Assembly (NCBI GenBank): GCA_963965975.1
Contig: OZ014414.1
Coordinates: 62,001 to 126,000 of the forward strand
DNA length: 64,000 nt
Direction of reading: 5' to 3'
DNA from: Xestospongia bergquistia
Taxonomy: Eukaryota; Porifera; Demospongiae; Haplosclerida; Petrosiidae
Of this stretch, positions 31,579-42,567 are shown piece by piece (position 1 is the first letter of the stretch; each line of letters begins with the position of its first letter). Made by a program: the position numbers and the translations under genes. The notes below the pieces were generated by a model. It worked only from the letters and a program-made list of their open reading frames with translations. It was not told where the DNA came from and searched no databases.

Positions 31579-33963
31579 CAATGTACATGTAGAAAGAATG
31601 CAAGTAATGTTATAATAATACCTGTACACATTTTGTAATACTGCTAAATTTGTTGTTTTATAGTCAGTAAAGACTTTCTTTGCTTGCTGGATAAGTGGGA
31701 CACGAGTCAGAGAAAGAAGTGAAGGTGATGCAGTTACTGGACCAGTATAAACTTCACCTTCCACTGTCGCTATAGTTAAATTCTTTGTTAAACAGAAATG
31801 AGAAACTACAGACAAAAGTAGAGAGTACTATAAAATAGTTTCTAGTATATGCTATTACTAACCAGAGCATTTTGTAGCTCCATTAATAATTTGTGGGGGA
31901 ATACAACCTTTTTTAGTATATTCTGTCCATTGACTAAACCACAACTACAACAATACAGTCATTATGACATCATAGAGACCACACCCAAATATTACCTGAT
32001 GTTCCGAATCTAATAAAGCAACAACAAGACCACACCCACTAGAACTCTCTTTAGATTCCTTCTTTTTATTTTGTTTATGTTCCAATTCACCAAGATTAGC
32101 ACAGACACAGAATTGAGTTATTGATAAAGACTCAGGAAAGTTATATCTGAAACAGAAAACAAGAAAAAATAAGAACAATATAACAATCACTCTTCAATAG
32201 TGTATTGCTGATAACAATAATGTACATTGTGTCTCGTGTGTACCTTTCACATCGTAGTACAATATAGTTAATACATACAAATATTTGATGTCTTTTACTA
32301 GTGATGCAAGCAGTGGCCCCATCACTAACTGATAAGTGATCGATACTGTCACCATCATCAACAACAATATTAGTTATCTAAAGAAAAGATATATTTAAAG
32401 TACATTGTGATTGTTATCTCACTAGTTTTGGAGTTGTCTGCATTTCTAATGTTTTGACATAACCGAGTTGGCCTAAATTTTTTCCAAAACTATATACTTC
32501 TGTCGTTGTACAGATTGCCGTGTGATAACGTCCTGCTCCTATATATCGAATACGCTTTGTTTTGAGGGCTTTAATTAGAGTTGGAGATACTTTAACAGAA
32601 CCCGATTTGGAACCCACACCAAGTTGATGAGCATCGTTGATACCACAGGAGAATACAACACCACTACATATAAAAGTAAATGGAGTTAGATGTTGACATT
32701 ATGTAAGTATATTTTAATTAATTACTCATTTCAATAGGGGCTAACTCTGTGTTGTAATGTACTTAATACATGTACCTTTCAAGCAGAAATACACTGTGAT
32801 TTCTTGCAGCTGCTACTTCTATACATTTTTCAGTTCGTAAGCTTTCTATCAATTTAGGTGACTAAACAATAACTCTAATTAAAATTGGGATGCATTATGG
32901 GTGTGGTTTTCTTACCACAACACTATGCTCATTGCCATGACCTAGTCGTCCACCAGGTCCATGACCACAACTGTAGACACACCCACTTTCTGTTAGTAAT
33001 AGCGTATGGAATTTACACAATACAACCTATTATAAAAATGGATAAATGGATAAATTAATAGATCAATATACTTGATTAATATTGCCGAGGGATGGACTTG
33101 TCTCTAATAACTCTGGTATAGATCGTGAGTGGTCATGACCCAATGTCATGTTTTCATTCATACCCCAAATATAAAGACACACCTCTGAGATAGCTACAGT
33201 GCATATTATAAGGACATTGTTGTCATAGAAACAAGGACATACCTGGATATGTATCAATCAGATTAAGGTTAGCTTGTAAAATATTTAGTGGAGAATACCC
33301 TTCATTATCTAGTAAGTTGATATTGGCACCAGCCTATAAATAATAATAGTAATGTTTGGTTTATATAATAACAAAATATTATTAATACTTTGTTACATTA
33401 GTATTGACTAGATTACCATTACATTGTGAGGAAATAGTTTATAAAACTACTACACAAGTGTAGGAGGAAGTTAATACTATCAATAGTCTACATACTAAAA
33501 TAAGGACTTTCTATAAGACCAACAATCATTGTATTAGATGGTCTACCTTTACTAAAGTAACCATAACTCCTGGATGTCCGTAATAAGCAGCACGATGCAG
33601 AGCAGACCAATGTGAGTCAACATCAACTACATCAATATATCTACATTTTCTTTTCAATAACCACTCCACTAAATTTAAATGTCCCTTTGATGCAGTTACA
33701 TGCAATACAGTACGACCAGCTACATCACTAGAGCATTGAGAAATAGATATATATAATAGAATACTGCACACACTGACAAAAGTACACCTTATATTCCAAG
33801 GGTTGCCACATATTGTTGAACAGTGCTTGAGTAGGTCTAAATTACCCAAAGCAGCACATCTTAACACCACATTAGCATGAGGAAGATGCTGGCATTTACT
33901 GGTACAATCTAAAACTGTGTCATGGGACCAAGTGGAGGCTTTTTTCTGCCTTCTGGCAGCCAT
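28155..33963 (-). CDS. IBTK: Inhibitor of Bruton tyrosine kinase homologue
   Basis: A many-exon gene with the complete IBTK architecture. N-terminal ankyrin repeats lie in 33547-33963 (TVLHVTASKGHLNLVEWLL and SALHRAAYYGHPGVMVTL). RCC1-type repeats follow in 32244-33193, with LYIWGMNENMTLGH and CGHGPGGRLGHGNEHS, the latter nearly invariant in IBTK. A divergent first BTB domain lies in 30791-31498, and the second BTB in about 30144-30744 (ICCHKCVLVARSDYFQSML). A BACK-like segment sits near 29754-29995 (LEFSSTYNAEQLQESCLQF). A Ser/Lys-rich tail ends in the conserved C-terminal block (IEEEAIQQLLQLYNADNNPDEF), stop at 28155-28157. Exons checked by phase include 33788-33963, 33547-33727, 33243-33333, 33072-33193, 32916-33026, 32776-32861, 32423-32663, 32244-32377, 31996-32146, 31863-31944, 31622-31805, 31393-31498, 30791-31344 and 30584-30744. 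In vertebrates IBTK binds Btk and acts as a CUL3 substrate adaptor; Btk inhibition cannot be assumed here. Confidence 0.92.
30232..30303 (-). tRNA. tRNA-Asp (anticodon GUC)
   Basis: A 72-nt cloverleaf on the minus strand. The seven-base acceptor stem TCCGAAG pairs with CTTCGGA, followed by discriminator G. The D-arm, the anticodon arm CCCGCCTGTCACGCGGG and the T-arm CCGGGGTTCGATTCCCCG are all intact, including internal A and B boxes. The anticodon GTC specifies aspartate. It lies in an IBTK intron in the same orientation as the host gene. No CCA is encoded, as expected for a eukaryotic tRNA gene. Confidence 0.97.
31538..31585. repeat. (TA)n/(TATG)n microsatellite in IBTK intron
   Basis: Consecutive TA repeats pass into TATG repeats and end at a short ACATGTAC palindrome-like stretch. 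It lies in the intron between the exons at 31393-31498 and 31622-31805. Confidence 0.8.
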
Positions 33964-34248: not shown

Positions 34249-36471
34249 ATGCAGTGTCCACGTTGTAGAGACCATTACACAACTGAAGGTGATCTTCAGC
34301 CAAGGATTATCACCATATGTGGGCATAGTTACTGTAGAAAATGTATTAACATACTCCGTAAAGACTCTGGTGTCCTAACATGTCCACAATGTGGTCAGTT
34401 AAGTTATGAACCAGATGCACCTAACGTTGCTTTAATGAGTTATATTGCAGTGCAAAGTCAGCGAGCGAAACCACACAAAGTCCGTGAAATCAATGCTCCA
34501 CGACAAGCTATAGTCTGTCAACATTGTAACGAAAGAGAAGTAGCTTTTATATGTTATCAATGTCTGACTATAGGCTTCCGATTTTGTCAACAATGTTCAG
34601 CTGTTGAACATGACAGACCATTCGGTCCTGTCCGAGAGCATAAGCCTATTCCTATAGAACAGGTCAAATATGGCGCTATTTTACCTGATTGTCACCGACA
34701 TCCTAGTCGTGTGTGTGAGCTTTTTTCATTTGTCGAGAATCGATTTGCTTGTGAAGAATGTGTACATGATTACGATTACTCTCCAGATGTATTTGTCGAT
34801 ATTGAGACAGCTGTTCTTGAGGTTCGTAAAAGCCTTCCTCCTCTTATGAGTAAAATGTCTACTATAAGAGATCGTCTTCAATCTACCCAAGAAAAGTTAA
34901 CGGAGCAGCTGGGACGTATGGATCAAGCCAAGTTGACTGCCATTGATAAAGTGAGAGTTGAGTTTCAAGATTTTGAAATGTCTTTGAGAAAGAGGCTTGC
35001 CTTTGTTGAATCACAAGTTGAAGAAGTAGTAAGTAATATGGAATAATTTAATTTTCAATATCTGTAATTATTTGAGTAATGCACCTTTGTAAGGAGTCTT
35101 TCCTGTGTAAAGTGTACATTATCAATTGATGTCATAATTGATGTCATAGTAAATAATATATTTATTTATTTTACATAGGCTGGCAATCAGAAGAATTTAG
35201 TTAATGAGCAGTTGGAACGAGTTGAAGTGGCATTAGGCTCAACAGCTACCTGTCTCATTCAAGCTAATATGCTCAATCAAATGCAGGATTATAGTTTACT
35301 CCAAAAAGCAGCTACCATTTTGGATCAGATGAAGACACAGATTATTGATCTCAATGACGATGACCTTAGCGAACCTGTAGTGTCAACAGAAATCTCAATT
35401 CATGTCACACCTGAATTTCAAACAGCTATTAATGAGCTTGGATTAGTGGGCGGAGGACAGACACCACAAGAATTTACATGTTCCACTGATGCTGGTATGG
35501 TTCTCTTGACGTGGACAACAAAAGAAAAAGGAATTTTAGAATATGAAATAGTTTGTGATTTAGTATTCACTGAACCAGATGATCCTACCATGACATCATC
35601 TCCAAATCAACCTTTTCCTCGACATTATAATGTTGAAAAGAAAACTGAGAAACGTATTGATAACCTATTTCCTGGAAAAAAATATCGCTTCCGTATCCGA
35701 AGTCGTAACAGTAGTGGGTGGGGCTGGTGGAGTCCTTCAATTTATGGGACAACTCCTGATTTTCCATTAGAAATTGGTTATATTGGTGATATAGTGAAAT
35801 TACCATTGCCTTGCGATGGTCTTTATCGTGTTATTGCAAAAGGAGGTAAGGCAGCTGACGGAGAGAAGAAAAATGGAGGGACTGGTGCTATAATCGAAGC
35901 CAGTTTCTTTTTGAGTAAGAATGATTTTCTTGAAATACTAGTTGGAGGAATGTCTGAGAGAAAAGGTCCTTGTAGCGGAGGTGGTGGTGGGACTTTTGTA
36001 GGTCTTAATGGACGACAGGATCTTTTAATAGCTGCTGGAGGAGGAGGAGGGACACGCGGATACGAGGAGGAAGACCAACATGGTAAAGATGCTAATACTA
36101 CTCCTAATGGACTTGGAGGCCATGGAGAACAGTGGGCTGCCGGAGGTAATAGTGGTAAAGCTGGACGAGATGCTATCTGGACAGGTCCCTGTTGGGGTTA
36201 TGGCGGAGCTGGGCACGTTGAGAACTCGACTTCTGCTCAGTCATTTGTAGCTGGAGGTGCTGGTGGTGAAGGAGGAGGATTTGGTGGTGGTGGTGCTATT
36301 GGTGCCTATGGAGGTGGAGGAGGTGGTGGGTACTCTGGTGGGGGAGGTGGACGAGGGGGGGGAGGAGGAGGAAGTTATGTCAGAGAAGATGGTCTAGAAG
36401 TCAAGAGAAGTACCGGTAATGAAGACAATGGAGTAGTTATTATTGAGAAAATCAAGGAAGCTGACAATTAA
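34249..36471 (+). CDS. TRIM-like RING/B-box/coiled-coil/FN3 protein with ALK-type glycine-rich domain (copy 1)
   Basis: Two exons, 34249-35028 and 35179-36471, give 690 residues. The first methionine lies next to a C3HC4 RING (CPRC ... CGHSYCRKC ... CPQC, residues ~3-48), the signature of ubiquitin E3 ligases. Cys/His-rich B-box-like zinc modules occupy ~90-180 (CQHCNEREVAFICYQC and CHRHPSRVC). A coiled coil spans ~195-330. A fibronectin type III domain covers ~375-470 (PGKKYRFRIRSRNSSGWGWWS). The last ~215 residues form a Gly-rich domain (AAGGGGGTRGY, CWGYGGAG, then long GGGG runs) resembling the glycine-rich region of ALK/LTK receptors. There is no signal peptide or membrane segment, so the Gly-rich domain should be cytosolic here. 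It is probably an E3 ligase whose FN3-Gly-rich end selects targets; that is inference. It has a tail-to-tail paralogue. Confidence 0.9.
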
Positions 36472-36926
36472 TTTAGATGTACTAATTTTTTATCCAACTA
36501 TTGTACATGTACTCATTACATAACTTTCTGGTTGTCATAGCAACATGAATTCCCAACTTCCAACATGTTTTTTACATGTAACAATTTATTTGAATTAATA
36601 GGAAATGAAATAATATACAATAAGTATATTATTTATTATTATTGAATAAATTGATTATCATAAATTCTATTAATAAAGTTTAGTACTGCCCAGTATAATA
36701 GGGCCTTCATAAATCCTTGACTGGATCATCATCACTATATGAAAAACAGCTTTACTTCACACATAATTGTCAAGCATTAACTGCAAAATTAAGTAATTAA
36801 TGACTCATTAAATTGAGTCCTTAATTAGAGGGGTGCCTCCAAAATAGACATCTAATGAGAGCCTCATGAAAATTTGAGTCTTCATTGAATTAAAAAAGTA
36901 CTTGATATCGTCAGAGACTTTTAATT
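36472..36926. other. Tail-to-tail spacer between the paralogues
   Basis: About 455 bp holding the 3' ends of both RING/Gly-rich genes. It is AT-rich with poly(A)-like AATAAA and ATTAAA motifs on either strand. No ORF or structured RNA is seen. Confidence 0.5.
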
Positions 36927-39787
36927 TTAATTAAGACCAGTGTTTGTGGGAGAGGTCTCAATGGGAATGGTTTCAGGTAATTTGCCACAATTCACATTAT
37001 CTTTAAGCGTCATTGAAATCAAAGGATCTGCATCTTGACTGAGACGCTCAATCAAAACATAACCATTTCCATCATTTTCAACCTTCTTAGTAACATTTCT
37101 AGCTTTGTCACTCACATAACTCCCACCTCCTCCACCACCACGCCCACCACCTCCACCAGAAAACCCTCCTCCTCCCCCACCTCCCAGGAAACCAACACCT
37201 CCACCTCCACCATAACCTCCACATTGTCCACCTTCTAGACCTTCATTGTAACATTTAGCAGTTTTAGCACTTTTATTAAAACCAGCTCCGCCATGACCCC
37301 AACAAGGTCCTTGATAAGAAGTCAAGTCAGCATCCATACCAGGTAACCCCTCTCGTCCTCCTTTGCCATGCTCTTTCCCACGTCCATCTGTGCCTGAAGG
37401 CTCTAAACTTGCATCACATCCATCCTCATCCTGGTCATCATATCCTCGAGTTCCTCCACCCCCTCCAGCTACAACAAGGAGATTTTCAACTTTAGCAGAA
37501 GTGCCTTCACGTATTAAAACAAATGTCCCTCCCCCACCTCCTGAGTGACCCTCTGGTCCCATTTGTGACATCCCGCCAACAGCCACTTCAATTCTATCAT
37601 TGACTTGAAGATTAAAAACAGCTGAGATCACAGCACCTCGTCCACCTTTGAATTCCTTGCCTCCGTCAGCAGCTTTAGCACCTGCAGAAGTAATACGATA
37701 CTCACCAGTCTCTGGTATCATTATAGATACTTTTTCACCAGTAAATGCAATACGCACAGGAAATCCTTCAAAACGACCAGTAATACTTTTACTCCACATA
37801 CCCCAACCAGCAATACTACGAGAACGAACTCTAAAACGGTATCGATATCCCGGATATAAATCATTCATCACATGAGCTTGAGCTTTGCCTGATTTGGGTA
37901 CAACCATAGGTTTAGTTTTATGGATACTATCAATAGGGCCAGTATTATTAGGACTTGGTGGGCGTCCATCAGGGACATGCTCATATTCAATTTCATACTG
38001 ATTAACATTAACTTCGGTAGCATAAGAAGGTAACGCCCACGATAATTGAGGTAAAGTCGATTGCTGATGCGGCACTTTATGACATACTAAATTTTGAGGG
38101 ACAGGACCACCCCCAACAGCTCCGTGGTTAGACAGTTCTTGATCCATATTAGTTCGGAAAAAACATGGAATATCACCAGGGGCAACAGGCCTTAAAAGGC
38201 TACTGTCTTCAATCACCATAAAATTCATAACTCCATCCATAACATGAGCATAGCCACGAAGGAAATCAGCATTAGGTTTTTGTAGTAGCGACTTCAGATT
38301 TTCATGATGGCCGCTCAAGACTCCAGAGTGATGAAGTATGCTTTGTTTTTGCCTCTCAATATTTTCTTTTCGACTTGCATACTAAATAAATAAAATAAAT
38401 AAAATATATTGATATGATAATTTGCTAACCTCTTCTTCAACTCGATGGATTAGTGCTTGTTGACGCTGCTGCAAAACTTCAGCTAATTTTGAAAACTCAG
38501 CCAATATGGCCACTTTAGCAGCACTAGCAGATTCTGATAACTTGAATAACATCATTTCTAATTCTCTTTGTGTATCATGAAGCGACTTCATTGTGTTATT
38601 ACAATGATAGTTAACTTTTCCTGCACGAACCCTCATACGTTCTGCAGCGTCCTCAACATGAAGAAATCCTGGAGCTTTTTCATTCCAGTCTATTTCTTTC
38701 TGACACTGAATACAAGCAAACTGGTTTGTCTTCTCGGAATAATGCGTAGCTATTGTTCCAGCATGACGGGAACACATTATCGTAAAATCATATTCTTGTA
38801 AAGGGACCCTACGATGAAGTCTTACAGGTTTAAAAGCTCGGTCATGTTCTAGTTTATCACAATCACTACAAAATTTAACACCTAAAGGTGAACAGGATAC
38901 ACATACGACAGATGCAGGTGCGAGACAACACGCTTCACAATAATCATTTTGAGGTTCAGGTTGTGGTTGACTCACAACAGCTAACATATCTAATATACCA
39001 TAATTAATAGGGATACGAGAAACTTCGGAAAATGTGACTCTGGTACTTGTAGAACAAAAAGGACAAAGTATAGCATCATTACGTAAACATTGACTTAAAC
39101 ATGAATGACAAAATGTATGTCCACAATTTAAAACACGAGGTACTCGATCAGGAGCTAATCCATAATCCAATGTGCAGATACTGCATTCTAAAAATATGCC
39201 AGTTGGCTAGAGTAAGGATATAATATTAAGATAAGCAAGGGAATCCACCTATGACATATGATGTGGACATATAGAAAACTATAAAATGCTTTATAAGGTA
39301 GTATTACTTAATAAGTTATGATTTATATTGTATGGGTTTATCATTATCAGGTTGTCTATGCTCCGCCTATTTATATTACTTGAGGGCAATAGCTATATAT
39401 ATCATGTACATATATAGTAGTGTATTGTATTAATGTAGTAATTTGAAATAGTAAAGTCTGGAGTGACAATAATGATGTGGGCGTAAATAACACTAAATTT
39501 AGACCAAACTGAAATAAATAGTGTAGTATGGAAGTCATTCCTATCTTGAAAAAAAATTGACATTTCTTAAAAGCACTTGAGATATGATATTCAAAAACAA
39601 TTATTACATTAAATTTACTATAAAACGTTCTCTCAAACATCATTGTAACTTGTAAGAACAGTCATTTTAAACAATACTTTATAACAAAACTAAACATTCA
39701 TACAATTGATATTTATTATAACAAAGTAATTTCTATCACTTTGTATATTGTCTAGTTACTTACGACAATTCCTTGATTAGTCGTCAT
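36927..39787 (-). CDS. TRIM-like RING/B-box/coiled-coil/FN3 protein with ALK-type glycine-rich domain (copy 2)
   Basis: Three in-phase exons, 39764-39787, 38430-39206 and 36927-38381, give about 751 residues. A tiny first exon encodes MTTNQGIV and joins PTGIFLECSICTLDYG, restoring the complete RING (CSIC ... CGHTFCHSC ... CPFC). Then come B-box-like zinc modules (CEACCLAPASVVCVSC, CSRHAG), a coiled coil, an FN3 domain (PGYRYRFRVRSRSIAGWGMWS) and a C-terminal Gly-rich domain with AGGGGGTRGYDD, CWGHGGAG and the GGGGGRGGGGGGSYV tail shared with copy 1. Domain order matches the convergent neighbour, so the two arose by duplication and inversion. Their coding sequences have clearly diverged. Probable cytosolic E3 ubiquitin ligase. 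The start rests on the microexon ATG, which splices in phase; without it the RING would lose its first cysteine pair. Confidence 0.88.
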
Positions 39788-40056: not shown

Positions 40057-42567
40057 ATGGCAAGTTCTAATCGCAGAAGCTTGACAAAACGTGTTTCATT
40101 TCATTCTCAACTTACTGACGGAGGCCAAAAACCAACTGAAAAATGTTTAGCTGTTCTTACAAGTGGAGGAGACTCTCAAGGAATGAATGCAGCTCTGAGA
40201 GGTGTGGTAAGAATAGCTATTTATAAGGGAATGAAAGCCTTTTTAGTTTATGAGGGTTACAAAGGTCTGGTTGAGGGAGATGACCATATCCAGGAGTGTC
40301 GGTGGGGCTCCGTTTCATACATTTTACATCGGGGTGGGACTGTTATTGGGACAGCACGTTGCAAAGAGTTCAGGGAACAAGAAGGTCGGCTGAAAGCTGC
40401 CGAAAACCTTATAAAAAAGGGTATTAATAATTTAGTTATTATCGGAGGAGATGGAAGTTTAACTGGCGCTAATATTTTTAAAAGTGAATGGAATGAGTTA
40501 CTTGATAAACTCCTTGAACAAGGCCGTATCACTTCAGAACAAGCGGACGATTTCCCCTACTTAAATATTGTGGGTTTAGTTGGTTCTATTGATAACGATA
40601 TGTCTGGTACTGACATGACCATTGGCACTGACTCCGCTCTACATCGTATTGTTGAGGCAATGGACTGCCTTTCCAGCACTGCTTCAAGTCATCAGAGAAG
40701 CTTTGTTATGGAAGTAATGGGAAGACACTGTGGATATTTGACGTTAATGGCCGGTATTGCAGGTGGTGCAGACTGGATACTTATCCCGGAGAATCCTCCA
40801 AGACCTGGATGGGAGGAGGCAATGTGTGCGAAGTTAGAGCAATGTCGAGAACTTGGAAGACGACTTAACTTTGTGTTAGTTGCTGAAGGAGCTGTTGACA
40901 TGAATAACAAAAAGATAACACCTCAGTACGTCAAAGAAGTCATCGAGTCTAACCTAGGTTATGATACTCGTATTACAGTTCTGGGGCACGTTCAACGTGG
41001 GGGCAAACCCTCAGCTTATGACAGAGTGTTAGGGTCTAGAATGGGAACAGCAGCTGCACTAGTACTAACACGAGCTGAAGGGGAAATTGATCCTGTTATG
41101 ATCGCGATACAAGGAAATGAAATTGTCGAGACACCACTTATGGAATGTGTTAACAAGACCCGCAGTATTGACAAAGCTTTGAAAGAATGTCAGTTTGATC
41201 GAGTACGTGAGCTTCGTGGACAAGGTTTCCTAAATAACATCAAAATATTGAAAAAGCTTGAAGCATGCTCAGGTCCAGAATGTAAAGATGACACTTTCTC
41301 CGATACTCCTAATTACACAATAGCTGTGATGAATGTTGGTGCCCCAGCTTGTGGTACCAACAGTTGTACTCGATCTTTCGTTCGCTTACTTTTATATCAC
41401 AACCATACAGTACTTGGTATTCATGAAGGTTTTGTTGGATGTGTCAAAGGAAATATTGAAAAGATGACTTGGTCTGGGGTCAGCGAATGGGGCTCTTTGG
41501 GTGGATCCAATTTGGGAACAAATCGTATTCGACCAACAGATGATACTCTGCCAAAAATAGCAGCAAAGTTTGAAGAATATGGTATTCAAGGTCTACTTGT
41601 GATTGGAGGATTTGAAGCATTTGAGAGTATTTTAGTGCTCGAAGGAGCTCGTTCAAAGTATCCAGCATTTCGTATCCCTATTCTCCAAGTTGCCGCTACT
41701 GTTAGTAACAATGTACCAGGTACTGAATATAGTTTAGGATGTGATACGGCACTTAATGTCATTGTATCCGCTTGTGATGTGTTGAAACAGTCCGCTACTG
41801 CTAGTAGAAAAAGGGTTTTTGTTGTCGAAACTATGGGGGGTTACTGTGGTTACCTAGCAACTATGGGAGGTCTTGCAGGAGGTGCTGACAGTGCTTATAT
41901 TTTTGAGGAACCTTTTAGTCTCTCAGATTTACAGCGTGACCTTGATTTTTTAGTAGGAAAATTTCGTGAAGGTTATCTTGAACGAGGTATTATTATTCGC
42001 AATGAAAATTGTAATGAAAATATAACAACAGAATTTATGACACAAATGTTATCTGAAGAAGGAAAGGAATTCTTTATTTCAAGAAGTAATGTACTAGGTC
42101 ATCTTCAGCAAGGAGATCGTCCTACTCCGTTTGACCGTATACTTGGTTCCAAGTATGCCTCACATGCTGTGTCACACCTTCTCTCTCAAATTACTGCTTA
42201 TGCTGATAGCGAAGGAGGCTTGAATGTCTCTACTCCTGATACTGTCTGTGTTTTGGGACTCATAGGAATTCAATATGTTGCCACACCTGTCTCTACCTTA
42301 AAGGAATCCAGTGATATGGTACACCGTATTCCTAAAGAACAATGGTGGATGCAGCTCCGCCCACTAGTTCGTGTTCTTTCGCGACATGTTGAACTTAGTT
42401 TCAGTGGCGAGACTCATCGTGAGAAATCTCAAGAGGCACTTGATACTGATCTAAATACTGAGAAGAGTTCAAGTCTGTTTCAAGGCAAACACCAATGGGT
42501 ACCTCCCCTAATAATGATTGGACTAATTATGGGGATGACCCTTTTAGCTAGTTTCAATAAGATATGA
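40057..42567 (+). CDS. PFK: ATP-dependent 6-phosphofructokinase with hydrophobic C-terminal tail
   Basis: A single uninterrupted exon encodes 836 residues with the tandem-duplicated eukaryotic PFK fold. It phosphorylates fructose 6-phosphate to fructose 1,6-bisphosphate, the committed step of glycolysis. The N-half has the ATP-site LTSGGDSQGMNAALR and IIGGDGSLTGA, and the catalytic SIDNDMSGTDMTIGTDSA. GHVQRGGKPSAYDR contributes to substrate binding. The C-half repeats the motifs in modified form (GAPACGTNSCTRSF, TVSNNVPGTEYSLGCDTA), as expected for the regulatory half. Unusually, the protein ends with a ~60-residue extension carrying WVPPLIMIGLIMGMTLLA, a plausible single transmembrane tail a few residues from the stop. 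Lack of introns is also unusual in this window. Enzyme identity is firm; membrane anchoring is inferred. Confidence 0.95.
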   Translation: MASSNRRSLTKRVSFHSQLTDGGQKPTEKCLAVLTSGGDSQGMNAALRGVVRIAIYKGMKAFLVYEGYKGLVEGDDHIQECRWGSVSYILHRGGTVIGTARCKEFREQEGRLKAAENLIKKGINNLVIIGGDGSLTGANIFKSEWNELLDKLLEQGRITSEQADDFPYLNIVGLVGSIDNDMSGTDMTIGTDSALHRIVEAMDCLSSTASSHQRSFVMEVMGRHCGYLTLMAGIAGGADWILIPENPPRPGWEEAMCAKLEQCRELGRRLNFVLVAEGAVDMNNKKITPQYVKEVIESNLGYDTRITVLGHVQRGGKPSAYDRVLGSRMGTAAALVLTRAEGEIDPVMIAIQGNEIVETPLMECVNKTRSIDKALKECQFDRVRELRGQGFLNNIKILKKLEACSGPECKDDTFSDTPNYTIAVMNVGAPACGTNSCTRSFVRLLLYHNHTVLGIHEGFVGCVKGNIEKMTWSGVSEWGSLGGSNLGTNRIRPTDDTLPKIAAKFEEYGIQGLLVIGGFEAFESILVLEGARSKYPAFRIPILQVAATVSNNVPGTEYSLGCDTALNVIVSACDVLKQSATASRKRVFVVETMGGYCGYLATMGGLAGGADSAYIFEEPFSLSDLQRDLDFLVGKFREGYLERGIIIRNENCNENITTEFMTQMLSEEGKEFFISRSNVLGHLQQGDRPTPFDRILGSKYASHAVSHLLSQITAYADSEGGLNVSTPDTVCVLGLIGIQYVATPVSTLKESSDMVHRIPKEQWWMQLRPLVRVLSRHVELSFSGETHREKSQEALDTDLNTEKSSSLFQGKHQWVPPLIMIGLIMGMTLLASFNKI

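Follow-up and report, generated by a model that had tools for sequence, protein, structure and literature searches.

In a 64,000-nucleotide stretch of the genome of the sponge Xestospongia bergquistia (assembly GCA_963965975.1, contig OZ014414.1, positions 62,001 to 126,000; hereafter the window, whose own numbering is used below), two convergent genes, A on the plus strand and B on the minus strand, encode proteins in which a TRIM-like N-terminal part is joined to an unusual C-terminal module. According to their predicted sequences, both proteins carry a RING, B-box-type zinc modules with conserved ligands, a region in the place of the TRIM coiled coil and an FN3 domain, in this order, followed by a module resembling the TNF-like and glycine-rich (TG) domain of the ALK/LTK receptors. 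We consider it probable that A and B are TRIM-type E3 ligases that act in the cytosol and use the TG-like domain as a target-binding head.

The C-terminal module resembles the TG domain of ALK and LTK

Pfam, PHROG and Foldseek comparisons place the module at residues 455–690 of A (35761..36468, plus strand) and 474–714 of B (37041..37763, minus strand). Approximately 30% of its residues are glycines (72 of 236 in A and 69 of 241 in B), and only one cysteine, located in the CWG motif, is aligned between the two copies.

When whole proteins were compared with Pfam, the ALK_LTK_GRD family (PF12810) matched B at E 0.029, and A gave no match up to E 0.1. The isolated modules yielded E 7.1e-4 (20.1 bits) for B and E 0.97 (9.8 bits) for A, and the low-glycine beta halves alone E 7.7e-5 (23.2 bits) and E 0.0033 (17.9 bits), respectively; no other Pfam family was listed for either half. 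The match is colinear, as residues 18–221 of the B module align to positions 6–203 of the profile. The two modules gave no hit in NCBIfam. It is worth stressing that the glycine-rich domain of a receptor-kinase-like gene from the same genome (described below) also lacks a Pfam hit up to E 1, so the ALK_LTK_GRD model is insensitive in this genome.

As a control, we used five shuffled versions of the module, all derived from B and none from A: two shuffled in full and three with every glycine kept in place. None of the five matched ALK_LTK_GRD or any PHROG profile (for one of them Pfam listed DUF4136, an unrelated family, at E 0.11). This indicates that the module is not simply low-complexity sequence.

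A profile built from the two modules and searched against the sequences of the PDB retrieved LTK first (E 3.8e-4) and ALK at E 0.021–0.34, among 18 sequences at E <= 1. Glycine linkers are also among the matches, starting at E 0.002, so that the search cannot decide the matter by itself.

Phage tail tips and the predicted fold

The phage profile phrog_22713 matches the modules nearly end to end (E 1.3e-18 in A and 2.9e-21 in B), better than the Pfam ALK profile does, and also recognizes the low-glycine halves by themselves (E 7.6e-8 and 7e-8). Another profile, phrog_7388, matches the modules at E 1.5e-10 and 2e-11. Since phrog_22713 also finds the module of the ALK-like receptor of this genome (E 1.2e-9), it behaves as a generic detector for such domains.

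In the cited sections of one study, the fibre tip of phage Pam3 is TNF-like plus glycine-rich and is described as recognizing the host receptor, a role proposed from structure; its distal end is hypervariable and is proposed to bind diverse receptors, and gp24 of this phage is similar to ALK of Caenorhabditis elegans (2.6 A over 125 residues) (PMC9608196). Glycine-rich bundles are also named in S16 gp38 and in ALK/LTK in the cited part of another paper (PMC13243192). These phage tips, together with the PHROG matches, suggest that the TNF-like and glycine-rich fold is a general recognition module and not an invention of ALK. The first-pass annotation, made from the window sequence alone, had called the module best known, in other animals, from the extracellular part of ALK/LTK receptors. 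To see it chiefly as a trademark of ALK proved inaccurate, as the same kind of fold occurs in phage tail tips (as described in PMC9608196) and the phage profile gives the better match.

A phage or viral donor of the module is not supported: no relative was found by tblastn in phages or in scans of IMG/VR, which is a weak test, as BLAST masks glycine runs. The best 50 of 635 fold matches in BFVD mix phage FN3 and glycine-rich proteins at TM-scores of 0.07–0.38 and are not evidence of origin.

Two AlphaFold2 models were obtained, each from a two-sequence alignment of the window proteins. The mean per-residue confidence (pLDDT) was 45.8 for exon 2 of A (FN3 and TG) and 44.3 for the TG module of B alone; 33 and 35 residues, respectively, lie at 70–90, and none reach 90. 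In a Foldseek search of the PDB, ALK and LTK occupy ranks 1–17 for the FN3 and TG model (E 3.6e-6 to 9.2e-5), followed by more ALK rows and by FN3 structures. For the model of TG alone they occupy ranks 1–21 (E 2.1e-5 to 2.9e-3), and the next match stands at E 0.22 (among the best 50 of 337). As far as these models can be trusted, the ranking gives good support to the TNF-like part and suggestive support to the glycine bundle.

The TRIM-like N-terminal part

The C3HC4 RING spans residues 3–48 of A (34255..34392, plus strand; Pfam zf-RING_UBOX, E 5.5e-7) and 16–59 of B (39054..39185, minus strand; zf-RING_5, E 8e-8). The FN3 domain covers residues 356–449 of A (35464..35745, plus strand; fn3, E 2.5e-6) and 362–469 of B (37776..38099, minus strand; E 4.4e-9). 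All four matches are above the Pfam cut-offs, in agreement with the first-pass annotation. In the pairwise alignment, 8/8 zinc ligands of the RING are invariant.

Between these domains lies a B-box-type zinc module with eight ligands, all shared by the two proteins (residues 90–131 of A, 34516..34641, plus strand; residues 98–139 of B, 38814..38939, minus strand). It is followed by a half module, C-x2-H...C-x2-C, which is likewise invariant (residues 148–171 of A, 34690..34761, plus strand; residues 153–176 of B, 38703..38774, minus strand). Thus, of the B-box-like modules previously proposed, one has the full set of ligands and the second only half of it.

A profile of the N-terminal parts of A and B matched 21 sequences of solved structures at E <= 0.001. 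These include TRIM32 (E 5.3e-11), TRIM23, RNF4, TRIM3 and TRIM2, as well as TRIM21, and the TRIM3 and TRIM2 matches extend through both RING and B-box (positions 5–135/136). For the coiled coil, which had also been proposed for both proteins, TRIM_CC gave a sub-threshold match in B (E 4.3e-4, 20.6 of 30 bits), whereas A gave none; at the start of exon 2 of A, the AlphaFold2 model predicts helices with low confidence.

No SPRY family follows FN3 in either protein (Pfam, up to E 0.1), and the TG-like module occupies that place, as had been noticed before. No EGF or kinase family was found at the same threshold. In 19-residue windows, hydropathy peaks at 1.14 in A, inside the TG-like module, and at 1.78 in B, in the B-box region; by this measure neither a signal peptide nor a membrane span is evident, which bears out the earlier observation and suggests a cytosolic location.

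The same domains could belong to a scaffold or adhesion-like cytosolic protein whose RING is not an active ligase and whose FN3-TG end forms oligomers or binds the cytoskeleton, in the manner of FN3 regions in class I TRIMs. FN3 is common to class I TRIMs, and the RING of A has an atypical residue after its first cysteine. We nevertheless consider such a scaffold quite unlikely, given that both RINGs keep 8/8 zinc ligands and that the joint profile finds the RINGs of solved TRIMs and of RNF4. FN3 also figures in published lists of TRIM domains, in their cited sections (PMC3137616, PMC12068639).

Gene models and conservation between the paralogues

Splice models were built from reading frames and splice-site letters and are thus predicted rather than transcript-based. 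Gene A (34249–36471, plus strand, 690 amino acids) is preceded by an in-frame TAA immediately upstream of its ATG and has two exons: 34249..35028 (residues 1–260, with the RING, the B-box modules and the first part of the coiled-coil region) and 35179..36471 (residues 261–690 and the stop codon, with the remaining coiled-coil region, FN3 and the TG-like module). Gene B (39787–36927, minus strand, 751 amino acids) has three: 39764..39787 (residues 1–8), 38430..39206 (residues 9–267, corresponding in content to exon 1 of A) and 36927..38381 (residues 268–751 and the stop codon, with the content of exon 2 of A and a short tail). In each gene the whole FN3-TG end is encoded in one exon.

The stop codons lie 455 base pairs apart. 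The proteins are 33% identical (240 of 719 aligned columns) in an alignment covering most of both lengths, and the intron of the coiled-coil region has the same aligned place and the same phase in both genes, so A and B are old, diverged duplicates. The tail-to-tail, inverted pair of paralogues described in the first-pass annotation was thereby confirmed, with exact coordinates.

Identity between the paralogues is 33% in the RING, 39% in the first and 29% in the second B-box module, 19% in the coiled-coil region, 24% in the linker and 35% in FN3. Within the module it rises to 52% in the beta half and 56% in the glycine core; the last strands (20 residues) stand at 35%, within the 19–39% of the six segments outside the module. 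With glycine columns left out, the beta half keeps the top value (43%). The glycine core then stands at 33% and the last strands at 35%, compared with 17–39% in the other segments, and neither rises above the level of the RING, first B-box module and FN3 (34–39%). Conservation between A and B is thus greatest in the module, largely through its glycines, and the head seems to be about as constrained as the best remaining segments, or more. Such a pattern does not favour an arms race between A and B. Additionally, the conservation of the module suggests a ligand that is fixed rather than fast-changing, and probably shared in kind by A and B.

Of the 64 columns in which glycine is aligned with glycine, 27 share the codon, compared with 22.5 expected by chance, in an alignment that favours matching glycines. 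Synonymous sites therefore look saturated, while the glycines appear to persist in register. These figures bear on the possibility that the glycine-rich end is low complexity grown from a GGN repeat, with neither a fold nor a specific function. Its glycine content of about 30%, the short GGA-type repeats detected in it and a core that lies mostly below pLDDT 40 would fit such an origin. The repeats are, however, short and imperfect (10 rows at a minimum score of 30, the best scoring 71), the matches to ALK_LTK_GRD and PHROG are lost in glycine-preserving shuffles, and the low-glycine beta half matches by itself. We regard this explanation as highly improbable; as the sole one, low complexity is made unlikely by the shuffles and the codon saturation.

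Related genes in the genome

Six-frame searches were run over the genome (146 Mb in 21 contigs), and all counts given here are lower bounds. The module of A or B, used as a query, found at least two places each. With phrog_22713 we found at least three, namely A, B and C9:580912-581580 (E 0.0045), and with phrog_7388 at least two. PF12810 gave no match, missing A and B as well, and matched none of 14 control genomes, hence it is uninformative; PF21722 (Gly_rich_2) gave no match here and matched 1 of the 14. A silicatein motif pattern, tried as a sponge marker, had 0 matches, which is a weak probe since the motif could be split by an intron.

A and B are thus the only TRIM-like genes with the module that were found, and a large family with the module did not emerge from these searches, whose counts are lower bounds. 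The first-pass annotation had proposed a lineage-specific, perhaps immune-type family, to be gauged by the number of RING-FN3-glycine-rich genes; an expanding family of immune type is not supported, our searches having yielded A, B and one ALK-like receptor-kinase-like gene.

TRIM-like genes are numerous: of 104 candidates for the N-terminal part of B (RING, B-box, coiled coil), at least 38 places, with A and B among them, reach E <= 0.01, some of them as matches to a single RING. This abundance, along with the hypervariable distal end of the Pam3 tip and the diverse receptors proposed for it in the cited sections of PMC9608196, would suit a lineage-specific, fast-evolving immune E3 whose TG tips vary to recognize microbes or viruses in the cytosol. 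Against this stand the finding of two such genes with the module (a lower bound), the age of the pair and the fact that the module is its best-conserved segment, though the core is not exceptional once glycines are left out. We therefore hold a fast-evolving immune E3 to be very unlikely.

We scanned the open frames at three of the TRIM-like places with Pfam. The first (L007) carries filamin and NHL domains, and the second (L022) is followed by an FN3 exon (L037) that may belong to it. The third (L017, match at C1:11161585-11162058) has a RING, two B-box stretches, a sub-threshold PML_CC and a MIB_HERC2 domain at its end, which seems an unusual head for a TRIM. TRIM-like matches also form clusters at approximately 0.30–0.80 Mb of C11 and 23.99–24.09 Mb of C1, mostly of open frames of 713–741 amino acids, and the place with filamin and NHL domains (L007) is one of them; these are probably an expanded TRIM family of this genome.

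The third place found with phrog_22713 lies in a receptor-tyrosine-kinase-like gene (C9:580405-585260) with an ALK-type glycine-rich domain, which Pfam ALK_LTK_GRD misses and whose best PDB match is ALK (E 7e-8). Inspection by eye shows, after the module, a cysteine motif of EGF-like type and a stretch resembling a membrane span. There are also tyrosine-kinase exons, the first of which resembles tyrosine kinases in general (best rows ABL-type and EGFR).

Proposed function

In the reading that we favour, A and B are cytosolic TRIM-type ligases. The RING would recruit an E2, the coiled coil would dimerize the protein, and FN3 together with the TG-like module, a TNF-like beta-sandwich with a glycine-rich strand bundle, would form the target-binding head, at the position that FN3-SPRY or NHL holds in other TRIMs. 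A ligand bound by the paired heads would then be ubiquitinated. The binding role of the head is suggested by the proposed role of the Pam3 tip, by PDB entry titles that call the TG domain of ALK/LTK the ligand-binding region, by the place of this domain in their ectodomain, as stated in the cited part of PMC10605310, and by the substrate specificity that the variable C-terminus confers on TRIMs, according to the cited sections of PMC12068639.

Several points weigh against this reading. Ligase activity and dimerization are attributed to A and B by analogy with TRIMs. The Pfam B-box profile (zf-B_box) matches neither protein up to E 0.1, and support for the coiled coil is weak and limited to B. 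The RINGs start differently, with CPRC in A and CSIC in B, so that an E2-contact position may differ. In the module, even the best ALK_LTK_GRD match remains below the cut-off of 24.5 bits, and the full module of A stands at E 0.97; the previously proposed ALK-like end is thus upheld by colinear, shuffle-controlled matches and not by the family threshold. The glycine linkers among the PDB sequences also blur the likeness. As for the models, they come from two-sequence alignments and leave most of the glycine core below pLDDT 40. AlphaFold may also remember ALK, and although ALK/LTK rank first, TM-scores to them are low (0.19–0.41).

A bolder version, which we think unlikely, would make A and B a new TRIM class in which a cytosolic head of the ALK and phage-tail type captures a specific ligand, uniting receptor and ligase in one protein; possible ligands would be a cytokine-like partner inside the cell or a protein of foreign origin.

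TRIM ligases differ in their targets chiefly through the C-terminal head. A TG-like head, if true, would add to those known and would mean that a fold of ALK/LTK ectodomains and phage adhesins is usable inside cells. With two genes and the FN3-TG end in one exon each, the pair offers a simple test case of ligand choice by this fold outside an extracellular setting, and the receptor-kinase-like gene with its ALK-type domain provides a built-in comparison in the same genome.

Neighbouring genes

Head-to-head with gene B, the window contains an uninterrupted phosphofructokinase gene (40057-42567, 836 amino acids). Its residues 815–833 are hydrophobic (mean 1.98), as if the protein were tail-anchored. 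On the other side, ankyrin repeats (33526-33963) and an RCC1-like fragment recognized by eye (32414-32617) lie on the minus strand within 32414-33963; these pieces suggest an IBTK-like gene, head-to-head with gene A.

Comparison with known systems

Class I TRIMs (MID1, TRIM36/46, TRIM9/67) consist of RING, B-boxes, coiled coil, COS, FN3 and SPRY. A and B share with them the RING, the B-box-type module, a putative coiled coil (weakly supported, in B only) and FN3, in the same order. They differ in that the second B-box has half its ligands and the TG-like module stands in the place of SPRY.

The module is akin to the TG domain of ALK/LTK in sequence (sub-threshold, shuffle-controlled) and, judging by the models, in its Foldseek ranking, but A and B have no evident signal peptide, membrane span, EGF or kinase domain by Pfam and hydropathy. 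The receptor-kinase-like gene of the same genome shares the glycine-rich module and the phrog_22713 match; it differs from A and B in the EGF-like motif, span-like stretch and kinase exons that follow, and its profile alignment with their modules covers the beta half only (59 columns, E 0.0055, probability only 6.6). The Pam3 gp24 and S16 gp38 tips, as described in the cited sections, and the proteins of PHROG 22713 and 7388 (whose profiles match both modules) appear to have a glycine-rich recognition fold similar to that of A and B. These are phage proteins, whereas in the sponge the module is joined to a TRIM-like E3.

The domain lists given for TRIMs in the cited sections of PMC3137616 and PMC12068639 comprise FN3, SPRY/B30.2, NHL, filamin, PHD, Bromo, MATH, ARF and others, with no glycine-rich head, and the word glycine does not occur in the main texts, as available, of PMC3503706, PMC3137616 and PMC8242945. 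Among the open-access titles and abstract beginnings listed in literature searches, none describes a RING-FN3-TG architecture; sequence-database annotation or subscription papers may do so. With these sources in view, we rate the combination as new for the TRIM kind. Its function is predicted, and its interest lies in the reuse of a fold that ALK/LTK receptors and phage tail tips appear to share.

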